IMG/VR virus record: IMGVR_UViG_3300037093_000109
Location: 1-34,408 of that record
Reading direction: 5' to 3' (one strand)
Source of the DNA: a virus
DNA: 34,408 nucleotides
The notes under the pieces were generated by a model. The model made no database searches. It had not been told where the DNA came from and saw only the letters and a list, made by a program, of their open reading frames with translations. Shown here one piece after another: positions 2,366-8,945 of the stretch (the stretch's first letter is position 1; each line of letters starts with the position of its first letter). The position numbers were made by a program, and so were the translations under genes.

Positions 2366-2511
2366 TGCGAACTTACCTACCCCAGGCAGAACGCATCAGG
2401 GCGGCAATACATAGAGAAATATTAGAAGCTGCCCTGTACTATCTCGGCGTATTTGCAATCTGTATAGCGACTATATGTATATTTGTGGAGAGCATCCAAT
2501 GGCTGGCTTAA
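2365..2511 (+). CDS. Small single-span membrane protein
   Basis: A 48-residue reading frame starting at the ATG that overlaps the previous stop (TAATG). Residues 1-20 are polar and helical (PQAERIRAAIHREILEAA). Residues 24-42 form one hydrophobic span (YYLGVFAICIATICIF). The stop lies 13 bases inside the following ATPase gene, whose ribosome binding site GGAG (2487-2490) sits in this frame. A short early membrane protein could affect the host envelope or exclusion, but nothing in the sequence shows this. Confidence 0.55.
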   Translation: MRTYLPQAERIRAAIHREILEAALYYLGVFAICIATICIFVESIQWLA

Positions 2512-3386
2512 GAGGCGTCAAACCAAGTGTGATTGAACAGCGTTTAAAACTATTTATGTATGGCGAAGCAGGGGCTGGTAAAACCACCGCTGCTATAAGC
2601 TTCCCAAGACCTTACGTGATTGATTGCGAGGGTGGGACAGCACAGAAACAGTATGTCGCCAAGATTGAAGAACAAGATGGACTACTATTTAAAACTACCG
2701 ATTTTGATGAGTTGATTGCTGAGGTTCGGACACTCCTTACAGTAGAGCATCCGTACAAGACGTTGGTTATAGATCCGTTAACCATCTTGTATAACGATTT
2801 ATTGGTCAAGTCTGCGGCTCAACTCAAGGCCGCTAGCAAAGAGAAAGACGCCACAGGAGAAGAGTTTGGTAGGCACTATTCTTTGGCTAACAGAAGAATG
2901 GCGCACTTGCTGGCATTGCTCTCTAGGCTTGATATGAATGTGGTTATAATCGCACAAGCCAAGAAAGAATATTCTGACAATATGAAAGTAGTTGGGGTGA
3001 CTTTCGATTGCTACAAGAAGTTGGATTATCTTTTTGATTTGGTCTTAGAGTTACAGCGTCGTGGAAGAAATGAACGAGTAGCTATAGTAAAGAAGACACG
3101 TATAGAAGAATTCCCAGATGGTGAAATTATTGCATTTAACTATGATGAAATAGCTAGGCGTTATGGTCGTGATATTTTGGAAAAAGACGCAGTGCCTGAA
3201 GTTTTGGCCAGCCCAGAGCAAGTATCTGAAACTAAACGCATGGTGACATTACTCTCCATACCTGAAGAGACAGTAAACAAATGGTTAACCAAAGCAAATG
3301 CAGAAACATTTGAAGAAATGAATGCTAAAAGTATCGATAAAGTAATTGAGTGGTTACACAAACAATTTAATGGAGATTCAAAATAA
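2499..3386 (+). CDS. Sak4-like RecA-fold ATPase (AAA_24), phage recombination
   Basis: A 295-residue ATPase. Walker A is GEAGAGKTT at residues 22-30, and Walker B is the hydrophobic strand ending in IDPL (Asp92). A later strand, VVIIAQAKKEY, fits the sensor/Q-loop position of RecA-fold proteins. This family (AAA_24, Sak4-like) comprises phage single-strand annealing or RecA-like recombinases. The next gene encodes an SSB-like protein, the usual partner. The start was chosen at 2499 because GGAG (2487-2490) lies 8 bases before it. A longer frame from 2475 has no such site. The C-terminal 60 residues are a charged helical region of unknown role. Confidence 0.85.
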   Translation: MAGLRGVKPSVIEQRLKLFMYGEAGAGKTTAAISFPRPYVIDCEGGTAQKQYVAKIEEQDGLLFKTTDFDELIAEVRTLLTVEHPYKTLVIDPLTILYNDLLVKSAAQLKAASKEKDATGEEFGRHYSLANRRMAHLLALLSRLDMNVVIIAQAKKEYSDNMKVVGVTFDCYKKLDYLFDLVLELQRRGRNERVAIVKKTRIEEFPDGEIIAFNYDEIARRYGRDILEKDAVPEVLASPEQVSETKRMVTLLSIPEETVNKWLTKANAETFEEMNAKSIDKVIEWLHKQFNGDSK

Positions 3387-3835
3387 TGTTTAGCTTCCCC
3401 GTAAAAACAGAAGACGAAGTAATGCGAGAAGGTCTACTACCAAAGGGCGATTATCAGTTTTGCGTGAAGTCCTGCAAGACCAAAAATTCAAAAGCTGGCA
3501 ATCCAATGTTGGAAGTTATATTGATTGTCTATGATGCGGAAGGTCATGAGCATTTTGTATATGATTATTTGTCCCCTGACTTTATGGAATTCAAGTTAAG
3601 ACATTTCTTTATTAATGTTGGTATGGAAGATTCCTATAATACAGGAAAGATAGATCCTGAAAGTTGTGTTGGTAAGTCGGGCATTGTTAAATTGTTTATT
3701 AAAGAAGATAAAAGCGGTCAGTATGCACCAAAAAATTCGGTTCAAGATTATTTGAAACCGGAAACGGCTCAGTCAGTGTTTAATGTAACATCGAAAGGTA
3801 TTGATCAAGAAATGAACGACGATATCCCATTTTAG
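3386..3835 (+). CDS. DUF669-like single-strand DNA-binding protein with SSB-type acidic tip
   Basis: A 149-residue protein of the DUF669 type, predicted OB-fold. The N-terminal part reads GLLPKGDYQFCVKSCKTKNSKAGN, followed by alternating strands, including MLEVILIVYDAEGHEHFVYDYL with its linking residues. The C-terminus ends NDDIPF, nearly the DDDIPF tip by which bacterial SSB recruits partner proteins. The ATG overlaps the stop of the Sak4-like ATPase gene by one base. In other phages DUF669 and Sak4-like genes are paired in the same way. Inference: it coats phage single strands and loads or stimulates the ATPase and host repair proteins. Confidence 0.75.
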   Translation: MFSFPVKTEDEVMREGLLPKGDYQFCVKSCKTKNSKAGNPMLEVILIVYDAEGHEHFVYDYLSPDFMEFKLRHFFINVGMEDSYNTGKIDPESCVGKSGIVKLFIKEDKSGQYAPKNSVQDYLKPETAQSVFNVTSKGIDQEMNDDIPF

Positions 3836-3857
3836 CAAGTTTATGGCCGAAGATACT
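3836..3857 (+). repeat. Direct repeat, copy 1 (pair with 5038-5059)
   Basis: The 22 bases starting CAAGTTTATGGCCGAAG match 5038-5059 at 21 of 22 positions (G/A at position 11). The two copies bracket the tRNA, DUF6948 and hexamer-repeat cassette. A partial third copy (AAGTTTATGGC) lies at 4920-4930, directly after the hexamer array. Confidence 0.8.
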
Positions 3858-3907: not shown

Positions 3908-3979
3908 AGGCCGCCCTATCCAGAGGCTAATACCCTCCTTGAAGCTCCTCTGCCAGTAGGAGGGATAAAACTGGCGATT

Positions 3980-4051
3980 TGGCATATAGCTCAGCGGTAG
4001 AGCGGCGTTCTGTTAAAGCGTTGGTCGCAAGTTCGATCCTTGCTATGCCAG
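3980..4051 (+). tRNA. tRNA-Asn (anticodon GTT)
   Basis: Folds as a standard cloverleaf: acceptor TGGCATA/TATGCCA, D-stem GCTC/GAGC, anticodon stem GCGTT/AGCGT with two wobble pairs, loop CTGTTAA with anticodon GTT, and T-arm GCAAG-TTCGATC-CTTGC. The discriminator base is G, as is usual for tRNA-Asn. The 3' CCA is not encoded. Length is 72 bases. It reads AAC and AAT, codons common in this AT-rich, Asn-rich phage. Confidence 0.93.
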
Positions 4052-4126
4052 AAAAAATTTTTATGACACCCTCCTTATTTTTTTGACCATGGGGGTTATT
4101 ATCTAGGGAAGGTGTCGCCAATTTAA

Positions 4127-4208
4127 GGATAGGTGGGTGAGCGGTTGAAACCGGCAGACTGTAAATTTGTTCCCTAAAGGCGCGGTGGTTCGAATCCACC
4201 CCTATCCA
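4127..4208 (+). tRNA. tRNA-Tyr (anticodon GTA)
   Basis: Acceptor GGATAGG/CCTATCC, a class II long variable arm (TCCCTAAAGGCGC), anticodon stem GCAGA/TTTGT around loop CTGTAAA (anticodon GTA), and T-arm GGTGG-TTCGAAT-CCACC. The discriminator base is A and CCA is not encoded. It reads TAT and TAC. It sits 75 bases after tRNA-Asn. The spacer carries GACACC (4065-4070) and GGTGTC (4111-4116), which may pair in the precursor. The Tyr-rich hexamer-array protein is encoded 0.4 kb downstream. Confidence 0.95.
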
Positions 4209-4269: not shown

Positions 4270-4638
4270 ATGTTAGAAGAAATGAAATTAAAAGATTTAT
4301 TGCAATTAGTTAATTTATTGAAAAATAAAAATGAAATTCATAACGAAATTGAAGATATGCGTTATGTAATCGTTCGCACATATTCAGCTGGGGTATTTGC
4401 AGGAAATTTTTATTCGAGAAATGGTCGTGCAGTAATATTGCAAAATGCAAGAAGACTATGGCAATGGTCTGGGGCTGCATCACTATCTCAATTGGCTATG
4501 GAAGGGGTTAGTGATCCTACTAATTGTAAATTCCCTTGCGAAGTAAAAACTATTGAATTAATAGAACCGATTGAAATTATCAATACCACTGAAAAAGCAG
4601 AAAAATCTATTAAGTCGGTGAAAGTATGGGAACTATAA
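4270..4638 (+). CDS. DUF6948-domain protein
   Basis: A 122-residue protein. Residues 30-120 match the conserved DUF6948 pattern as I remember it: YVIVRTYSAGVFAG, SRNGRAVILQNARRLW, WSGAASLSQLAMEGV, CKFP and, at the end, TEKAEKSIKSVKVW. The family is frequent in phages and has no known function. The start has AAGGA 8 bases upstream and its own promoter at 4228-4256. The stop lies 12 bases inside the next gene, the Gly-rich repeat protein, which is in the -1 frame relative to it. That arrangement suggests coupled translation of the two products. Confidence 0.85.
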   Translation: MLEEMKLKDLLQLVNLLKNKNEIHNEIEDMRYVIVRTYSAGVFAGNFYSRNGRAVILQNARRLWQWSGAASLSQLAMEGVSDPTNCKFPCEVKTIELIEPIEIINTTEKAEKSIKSVKVWEL

Positions 4639-4919
4639 ATATCGGCTCTGGCTCTGGCTATTGCTATGGCTCTGGCTATTGCTATGGCGATGGCTATGGC
4701 TATGGCGATGGCTCTGGCTCTGGCGATGGCTATGGCTCTGGCGATGGCTCTGGCGATGGCTATGGCTATGGCTCTGGCTATGGCTATGGCTCTGGCGATG
4801 GCTCTGGCGATGGCTATGGCTCTGGCTCTGGCGATGGCTATGGCTCTGGCGACGGCTCTGGCTATGGCTATGGCTCTGGCGATGGCTATGGCTATGGCGA
4901 TGGCTCTGGCTCTGGCTAA
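4626..4919 (+). CDS. Low-complexity (Gly-Ser/Tyr/Asp)n repeat protein
   Basis: A 97-residue frame: the lead MGTINI, then 45 dipeptides (counted: 17 GS, 17 GY or CY, 11 GD), a last Gly and a TAA directly at the array end. It overlaps the DUF6948 gene by 13 bases. Four other long frames, on both strands, also stay open because the hexamer contains no stop in them. This frame is preferred for three reasons: it has an ATG coupled to the upstream stop, a stop exactly at the end of the array, and the single GAT-to-GAC change is silent only here. Such a chain would be disordered or would form flexible beta structure. No function is known to me. Expression is not proven. Confidence 0.55.
   Translation: MGTINIGSGSGYCYGSGYCYGDGYGYGDGSGSGDGYGSGDGSGDGYGYGSGYGYGSGDGSGDGYGSGSGDGYGSGDGSGYGYGSGDGYGYGDGSGSG
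4644..4916 (+). repeat. 45-unit hexanucleotide tandem repeat GGC(TCT/TAT/GAT)
   Basis: Forty-five hexamers plus a final GGC, built from only three units (GGCTCT, GGCTAT, GGCGAT) in irregular order. The exceptions are two GGC-to-TGC changes near the start and one GAC. Third codon positions are otherwise uniform. GC content is far above the flanks. This looks like recent growth by slippage or unequal recombination. Confidence 0.95.
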
Positions 4920-4927
4920 AAGTTTAT

Positions 4928-4987
4928 GGCACACAACACACCTTCACTTTCCCCCGTTTGTGATCGTCCTTGAGAATGTTGTGTGCC
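4928..4987 (+). other. Long-loop hairpin directly after the repeat array
   Basis: GGCACACAACA (4928-4938) and TGTTGTGTGCC (4977-4987) are perfect 11-base inverted repeats around a 38-base loop. No T-run follows, so it is not a classical terminator. The 4920-5081 interval holds no gene. It carries this hairpin, a second TATTAAGTCGG copy (5008-5018; first copy 4608-4618) and the 22-base direct repeat. Confidence 0.7.
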
Positions 4988-5037
4988 GCCAAATTGATAG
5001 ATATAGATATTAAGTCGGGGTTGGTATCTATATAAAA

Positions 5038-5059
5038 CAAGTTTATGACCGAAGATACT
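5038..5059 (+). repeat. Direct repeat, copy 2 (pair with 3836-3857)
   Basis: CAAGTTTATGACCGAAG and five more bases match the first copy at 21 of 22 positions. It lies just before the gene at 5082. Together the copies delimit a 1.2-kb cassette. Confidence 0.8.
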
Positions 5060-7100: not shown

Positions 7101-8945
7101 CTATAAGAGTAATTCGTAAATTGTATTTAATGTTTGTGAACCACTTCCGCCATTCACAATCTCATAATTTTTGCCAACTGGAACAGTAAAGTTAAAGCAT
7201 ATTTGATCACCAGTTACTACATCACTTTTGATTTGTTTCAATATGACGGTTCCAGCAACTAATACACTTACCGATGAATTTTGAGCGGCTGCATTGGTAT
7301 AACTACAGATTACACAAACATTGGCATCATTGGTGGTGCTGGGTGTGTAAAGGGTAGAAAATGCAGGTGTCGCGCGCGAGACATAGGATCGACTTATACC
7401 TATATTAATACCACCATCTACAACAATTGTTCCTGTATTGGTAATCAGACTATTGTTGGGCAAGCTTCCTCTATTAACTGTAATCGTAGAATTAGCCGGT
7501 GTAGAAGATGTGTTAGTGATGGTTGTAGTATTTAGGAAACCAACGCCCTCAATTTCCATAGTGCAGGCATCATTAGCTATCCAAGTGCTGCTATAATTTC
7601 CATCATTAGCACCGCCTTGCACCTCGAAATCTCCTCCTATGCCGCCTCCAATAGTGGAAGAGTGCAGAGAATAAGTGCCACCCGCATTATAACTACTAAC
7701 CACTTGGGTAGACCCACCTTCAGAAGTAACCCCGGAAAAGAAATAACATCCTTGGAATATAAATTGATTCACAGAATTTTGCGCTTTGCATACGGGTGCA
7801 TTAGAATAGCGAACATTAAAGCAATAAATTTTGCCTTGAGCATTAGCAGCTTGCACAGAACAATCAAATGATATTGCTCCTCTCAACTCAATATCAGAAA
7901 ATCCAGATCTATTGTCTGCATTAACATTCCAACTTGCTTCGTTAATATCAATATTACCCAATAATCTAGTTTCTACTGCTGCCGTTCCAACGATAAAGGT
8001 ATTTGCTTTTAAATGGATATTTTCAGGATAAAAACCAGGTTGAACAAAAATCACATAACGCTTAGTCGGTGATTCATCTGTATAGGTAGACATTGCAAAA
8101 GTAATCGTTGCATAAGGATTAATTGCTGTTCCTGTTCCGGTTACGTCTGACCCCTGCAAACTTACATAAATTTCTTGAGTTGATGCAGCGGTAATTAATG
8201 AATTAACATTTGCATATCTTAAACCGGTAGGTTGAGTTGAATCAGCCACTAAAACATCATTATTTGGGCCAACTGGCAATCGTGTATTTGTAGTGGAATA
8301 TGTATAGAGATCACCTTTTGTTGTTAGAGGAGAAGGCGTCAGACTTGAAGCTGCTATACCGGAATCTTCAATCGTTCCTAAAGTGTCAGCAGCCATTACA
8401 ATATTACCTACAACAAATGCCCCGCTCACTGATGCAACATCAGGTAGTGCATTATTGGTCGCATTTTTAGAAGATGCCGTCCCAGAACCTGCAACACTCA
8501 CTTGTTGAAATACAAAAGCATTTCCACTACCCGTTGCAAAGCTGTTTGGAAGAGGCTCAATCAAAACTAACATTTCACCAGCATGGATAGCACCGGCTGA
8601 AATTGGAATATACATACCAGGCTTTAATTGCGCGATAGATTGGAAATCTTCTGATCTCATCAATATCCAAGGAGTAGCTGCGCCAAAAGTTGCATCATTT
8701 CCTGAGGCCACAACAATATAGATACCATTTTGGGAAGCATCAGTCTGCGCTGTAACAGCAACGCGATCACCTGGTTGTAGAGCCACTGAATCAATTACTA
8801 ATGCCGTATAGGTTCCATTGTTAGTTAAAGTCGCACCTACGCCATTTCCCACCAAGACAGAATGATATAAAGCATTCAAATTTGCGGCTGCCATTACCCG
8901 ACAAGAATCTAATTGTTCTGGAACATTAAAACTACTAATTGTCAT
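7101..8945 (-). CDS. Tail fibre/tailspike-like protein with beta-helix centre
   Basis: 614 residues. Residues 15-150 are a domain shared with the separate 143-residue protein at 11009-11440 (CRVM..ANL, GATLTNNG, AQTDASQNGIY). Residues 163-196 carry the module shared with the 205-residue protein. Residues 206-245 carry the LTTKGDL...RLPVG...VL...STQPTG motif shared with the next fibre. Residues 255-530 have short strand repeats with Asn/Gly turns (QPGFYPENIHLKANTFIVG), as in pectin-lyase-type right-handed beta-helices of tailspikes. The C-terminal 90 residues look like a small beta-sandwich. Likely a host-receptor-binding or polysaccharide-degrading spike. No catalytic residues can be assigned. 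AAGGA precedes the ATG. Confidence 0.7.
   Translation of the reverse strand: MTISSFNVPEQLDSCRVMAAANLNALYHSVLVGNGVGATLTNNGTYTALVIDSVALQPGDRVAVTAQTDASQNGIYIVVASGNDATFGAATPWILMRSEDFQSIAQLKPGMYIPISAGAIHAGEMLVLIEPLPNSFATGSGNAFVFQQVSVAGSGTASSKNATNNALPDVASVSGAFVVGNIVMAADTLGTIEDSGIAASSLTPSPLTTKGDLYTYSTTNTRLPVGPNNDVLVADSTQPTGLRYANVNSLITAASTQEIYVSLQGSDVTGTGTAINPYATITFAMSTYTDESPTKRYVIFVQPGFYPENIHLKANTFIVGTAAVETRLLGNIDINEASWNVNADNRSGFSDIELRGAISFDCSVQAANAQGKIYCFNVRYSNAPVCKAQNSVNQFIFQGCYFFSGVTSEGGSTQVVSSYNAGGTYSLHSSTIGGGIGGDFEVQGGANDGNYSSTWIANDACTMEIEGVGFLNTTTITNTSSTPANSTITVNRGSLPNNSLITNTGTIVVDGGINIGISRSYVSRATPAFSTLYTPSTTNDANVCVICSYTNAAAQNSSVSVLVAGTVILKQIKSDVVTGDQICFNFTVPVGKNYEIVNGGSGSQTLNTIYELLL

Follow-up and report, generated by a model that had tools for sequence, protein, structure and literature searches.

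Several Sm/LSm proteins carry low-complexity Gly-rich or acidic disordered regions, such as the GR tails of SmD1 and SmD3 and the C-terminus of Hfq. The phage protein DUF6948 is predicted to possess the N-terminal helix and the five-stranded barrel of these proteins (Sm, LSm1-8, archaeal SmAP, and Hfq). What sets it apart from them is a long, helix-containing insert that separates strands 3 and 4. The low-complexity part is also a separate gene, here called GX, that encodes Gly-X repeats with Ser, Tyr, or Asp and not Arg. In an alignment of 61 DUF6948 sequences, inspection by eye did not bring out the residues typical of the LSm RNA pocket (Asp/Asn of loop 3, Arg-Gly of loop 5), and we therefore make no claim of RNA binding at the canonical site. 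A second structure of relevance is 3by7, an Sm-like protein from an uncultured marine source that we take to be of putative cyanophage origin. It matched DUF6948 with Z 6.9 over 69 residues at 19% identity, showed no sequence relationship by profile, and has to our knowledge no GX partner. Rof, an Sm-like, Hfq-related inhibitor of Rho (PMC11018626), is a small protein that acts on a host machine, and we regard it as a functional analogue only. The Pfam entry PF22253 (DUF6948), of which the gene studied here is a member, gives no function, and its name tells neither the GX partner nor the Sm-like fold. In the open-access literature (subscription papers lay outside the search) no description was found of the gene pair, of an Sm-like fold in DUF6948, or of the GX repeats. 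Each half of the pair resembles a known kind, Sm-like proteins and low-complexity tails respectively, and their combination would be new.

The DNA examined was an IMG/VR virus record of 34.4 kb, and "the window" denotes this whole stretch. Its minus strand carries P22-type coat, portal, and terminase genes, whereas an early cluster on the plus strand runs from a Sak4-like ATPase gene through an SSB-like gene and two tRNAs to the DUF6948 gene and the repeat ORF (Table 1). In our definition, the module consists of a DUF6948 gene with a GX-repeat ORF immediately behind it in the same orientation, which is the arrangement in the window. The domain match of DUF6948 covered the complete profile (E 2.5e-30, 104.9 bits against a cut-off of 27; residues 30-114, profile positions 1-85 of 85). 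The DUF669/SSB-like protein, whose gene adjoins that of the ATPase, ends in MNDDIPF, an acidic tip typical of single-strand binding proteins. Rfam searches of the window returned the two tRNAs and nothing else, DNA comparison with phage records revealed no near relative, and promoter-like sites around the GX and DUF6948 genes did not exceed chance. The GX stop codon is directly followed by a perfect inverted repeat of 11 bp, GGCACACAACA...TGTTGTGTGCC, with a 38-nt loop (positions 4928-4987), and then by a 13-bp hairpin at about 5001-5033. Folding of this stretch was barely above that of shuffled sequences (z -1.7), and it is no standard terminator. A 22-nt stretch, CAAGTTTATGACCGAAGATACT, occurs in two copies that are 95% alike, one after the SSB-like gene (3836-3857) and one after the GX gene (5038-5059); it is a possible shared regulatory site.

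Table 1. Features of the early cluster in the window.
Feature	Positions	Strand	Basis or remark
Sak4-like AAA ATPase	2475-3386	+	Early cluster
DUF669/SSB-like protein, acidic tip NDDIPF at C-terminus	3386-3835	+	Early cluster
tRNA-Asn	3979-4052	+	Early cluster
tRNA-Tyr	4127-4208	+	Early cluster
DUF6948 gene, 122 aa	4270-4638	+	Pfam PF22253, AlphaFold, PDB matches
GX gene, 97 aa, low-complexity, without recognisable folded domain	4626-4919	+	ORF; position and composition shared in about 190 loci
Hexamer array GGC-NNT, 45 units	4644-4918	+	Sequence, Tandem Repeats Finder
Overlap of DUF6948 and GX genes, conserved start site	4626-4638	+	GX ATG on Trp codon (GTA-TGG) of DUF6948 C-terminus

The repeat array had originally been predicted to encode a Gly-X protein, and the sequence and the ORF list bear this out. 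From an ATG at 4626-4628 to a TAA at 4917-4919, the 97 codons specify MGTINI, 45 Gly-X units in which X is Ser, Tyr, or Asp, and a final Gly; Tandem Repeats Finder reported 45.8 copies of a 6-mer. A run of 45 in-register units cannot arise by chance. The accompanying statement that only three hexamers are used needs amendment: besides GGCTCT, GGCTAT, and GGCGAT, the array contains TGCTAT twice (Cys-Tyr; GSGYCYGSGYCYG) and GGCGAC once. The third-base change in GGCGAC is, as had been stated, silent in the GX frame only. Because all three forward frames and one of the reverse frames are open, openness of the frame proves nothing about coding in the window, and we read the ORF as coding because in part of its relatives the other forward frames hold stops. 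A Pfam match of GX to TrAA12 (1.8e-5, below the cut-off) was set aside as a low-complexity match.

Linkage of the two genes was assessed at loci found by DUF6948 sequence alone in viral contigs, in one genome per species for 84,980 species, and in phage records. A narrower alignment was used for this search, as the whole alignment did not hold enough conserved stretches, and duplicates and contig-end cases were removed before counting. A GX ORF lay directly downstream of DUF6948 in 134 of the 139 non-redundant loci (96%; viral 74/75, genome 53/56, phage-record 7/8), compared with 5 of 1,828 unrelated ORFs of the same loci that served as controls (0.3%). Five loci are exceptions, but in L182, L188, and L212 a shorter GX reading frame begins at the corresponding position, so that GX is truly missing only in the divergent loci L140 and L206. 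A scan for the DNA pattern of the array alone (GGCKMT) matched at least 120 viral contigs, and about 60 of the matched stretches hold a DUF6948 gene. The coupling of array and DUF6948, proposed from the window, is now seen in about 190 loci. According to the record titles, the genome matches come from many bacterial phyla and from two archaeal bins, presumably as prophages or as phages binned together with the host. Neighbouring genes across the loci encode Sak4/AAA_24, DUF669/SSB-like, Erf, RecT-like, YqaJ-like, SSB, and helicase proteins, several of these names being read from the sequence. DUF6948 and GX form a conserved two-gene module in many unrelated phages.

The 13-nt overlap noted in the window between the GX start and the end of DUF6948 recurs in most loci. 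GX starts 13 nt before the DUF6948 end in 144 of 189 non-redundant loci, and in 175 of 208 loci its start codon falls on a TGG (Trp) codon of DUF6948. No locus has a start at -13 without the conserved Trp, so the start codon that its TGG contains accounts for this residue at least in part; where the Trp is missing, GX starts elsewhere and sometimes in another frame. The bases at -8 and -7 before the GX start are G and T in more than 90%. Offsets of -13, -16, and -19 belong to one frame, and -8, -14, -17, and -11 to another. Since the frame of GX relative to DUF6948 differs among loci, a frameshift fusion of the two genes was ruled out.

An AlphaFold model of DUF6948, built with 61 homologues, reached pLDDT 92.7 as a single-chain prediction. 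Its elements (H7-22, E32-37, E42-51, E54-62, E92-98, and E100-105) describe an N-terminal helix and a five-stranded Sm/LSm-like barrel (residues ~30-105), to which a C-terminal helix is added. The best 50 PDB matches were all Sm/LSm proteins, both with Foldseek (probability 1.00, best E 2.6e-3) and with VIA-align (Z 6.7-7.7). With Z below 8 and Foldseek E above 0.001, the fold assignment rests on the unanimity of these matches. At the sequence level, SM-ATX of Pfam was matched by two of the 61 members (best 9e-4), and LSM was absent among the families listed. A profile search of the PDB with DUF6948 found no Sm chain and gave only weak matches to eL33/L35Ae, and an LSM profile search of host genomes yielded no loci for a profile-profile comparison. 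On the basis of the model we provisionally assign DUF6948 an Sm/LSm-like fold.

Variants of the second gene were also encountered. In gut-type phages (about 30 loci) the GX chain runs into a conserved domain of ~150 aa with the motif FFxWHHxLTGSCxxGRxxF; loci whose GX carries this HHxLTGSCxxGR C-terminal domain include L174, L180, L183, L189, L194, and L061. The domain was modelled with AlphaFold at pLDDT 93.5. It gave no clear fold match in the PDB (best Z 5.0, EF-hand-like helices) and no convincing Pfam, NCBIfam, or PHROG family. Assigning a function from this domain was dropped, as the model is confident but without clear fold or family. In Riemerella phages this same C-terminal domain follows BspA-like repeats with no DUF6948-looking neighbour; one such gene, in phage CRP6 (L298, 2294-2902), is annotated 'ribonuclease inhibitor'. 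At locus L090, the GX ORF that follows a DUF6948-like ORF (7226-7534) has a different C-terminal region (CHKDTLHATLIPPKWKGERWWVVALHGEV), for which no Pfam or PHROG match was found. Tandem GX genes, two to eight copies, were present in 18 loci, and at L278 eight GX-repeat ORFs lie in tandem within 2.5 kb downstream of DUF6948.

Array length had been expected to vary between isolates, and it does. The Pectobacterium phage genus around Ymer has been described (PMC11445585); a term search of that paper gave nothing pointing to the GX gene. In eight isolate genomes of this group the GX gene measures 162, 204, 222, 222, 222, 252, 258, and 270 nt. All length differences are multiples of 6, the first residues are shared, and the stop is in frame. 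Phages Ymer and Amona do not differ at any base of the 399-nt DUF6948 gene or of the 150 nt flanking it on either side, but their GX genes (222 vs. 204 nt) carry arrays of different length and order. In the metagenomic pair L218 and L220, 600 nt of upstream and 300 nt of downstream sequence match exactly, whereas the GX proteins are 31 and 67 aa long. GX is hypervariable among isolates, and the recent turnover postulated for the array agrees with these differences in order and length beside identical flanks. Frame-shifted or broken arrays, which would have spoken against the original prediction, were not seen in relatives; the related isolates remain in frame and change in 6-nt steps.

These observations bear on two explanations in which the repeat would not matter as a protein or would not be real. 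Such arrays are where many metagenomic contigs come to an end (e.g. L016, L027, and L202), so copy numbers from short reads, including the 45 of the window, are uncertain. That the array length of the window is as a whole a short-read assembly artefact is nevertheless highly improbable, as arrays of this kind stand in isolate genomes (phiPLPE, the Ymer group, and CV-1-33). The possibility that the DNA itself is the functional element had been raised at the outset, and a DNA or RNA element or a selfish repeat with an incidental ORF would fit the uniformity of units within each array and the open forward frames of the window. Relatives, however, write the same Gly-X chain with unrelated DNA units: GGC-TAT/TCT/GAT in the window, GGT-TAC/TCC/GAC in L125, and GGA-NNT in L245. 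L189 and L191, whose DUF6948 proteins are 97% and C-terminal domains 90% identical, use TCC-GGC-GAC and AGC-GGA-TAC-GGC, respectively. Across the arrays, Gly is encoded by GGC (4083), GGT (948), GGG (227), and GGA (152), and deviations from an array's own Gly codon number 107, 63, and 343 at positions 1, 2, and 3, a 3- to 5-fold excess of silent changes. In a set of 157 distinct short GX ORFs, the two alternative forward frames contain stops in 38 and 79 cases, and the start codon is conserved. With the unrelated units, the silent excess, and the stops in other frames, we give an element at the DNA level hardly any credence. The X residues are Ser (1958), Tyr (1524), Asp (1299), Asn (143), Phe (127), Arg (31), and Lys (6). 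The codon patterns argue strongly that GX is selected as a protein, with a constraint acting on composition and the two-residue register and not on order or length.

As a tentative reading, in which we place somewhat less than even confidence, we hypothesize that the module is an Sm-like DUF6948 protein that acts with a separately encoded disordered Gly-X tail in nucleic-acid handling. The first gene would yield a small Sm/LSm-like barrel protein, and the second, translated from the start codon inside the end of the first, an intrinsically disordered Gly-X chain. Both products may act together early in infection, beside the recombination and replication genes. The Sm-like protein, possibly ring-forming, would bind nucleic acid (RNA or ssDNA handling, condensates), and GX would be a separately supplied low-complexity tail comparable to eukaryotic Sm/LSm tails or the disordered acidic C-terminus of Hfq. 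Tyr could provide weak multivalent contacts, Gly and Ser flexibility, and Asp solubility and charge mimicry of nucleic acid; condensate behaviour is suggested by this composition. Length and order of the array would shift by unequal exchange or slippage of 6-nt units, a process that would also keep codons uniform. The simple tail model leaves the folded C-terminal domain of the gut-phage GX chains unexplained.

We prefer a nucleic-acid-handling assembly to the three other roles considered here because it accounts for the coupling of the genes, their early position, a constraint on composition alone, and the leeway for changes in order and length. The predicted fold, the example of Rof, which inhibits Rho (PMC11018626), and the position in the early region would also suit a DUF6948 that regulates or inhibits a host machine such as Rho, with GX as an accessory that tethers or concentrates it. 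Such a role leaves the near-constant coupling to GX and its hypervariability unexplained, and Rof is absent among the best 50 fold matches listed, which is not an exclusion; we consider it unlikely. Rather improbable, in our judgement, is a counter-defence function in which GX engages a host defence protein as a decoy or nucleic-acid mimic, DUF6948 is its partner, and turnover reflects an arms race. Arrays that differ among isolates with otherwise identical genes, the tandem copies, and the net negative charge of the chains (median -9) are in its favour, but repeat slippage yields hypervariability without an arms race, GX composition is constant across very different hosts, and the neighbours are DNA-metabolism genes. 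The same neighbourhood, early and not structural, led us to reject GX as a tail-fibre or structural gene. Gly-Ser/Tyr repeats are like silk-like sequences, and conserved pairing would fit DUF6948 as chaperone of a virion or internal structural or adhesive component, but GX N-termini bear by eye no resemblance to a signal peptide, and we think this very unlikely.

Beyond the nucleic-acid reading preferred above, it is possible, although doubtful, that the module constitutes a phylum-spanning phage system of a dedicated Sm-like protein and a hypervariable, composition-coded disordered protein, serving as a condensate, RNA-protein assembly, or decoy, with a tail tuned by rapid 6-nt turnover. An anonymous DUF and a seemingly junk-like repeat have become a tightly linked gene pair, the first gene of which has a testable Sm-like identity. 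Isolates in which little else varies than how long a disordered chain is and how its units are ordered, while alphabet and register are fixed, represent a natural experiment suited to asking for what a low-complexity protein is selected. The module bears on whether phages make their own RNA-protein assemblies or condensates.
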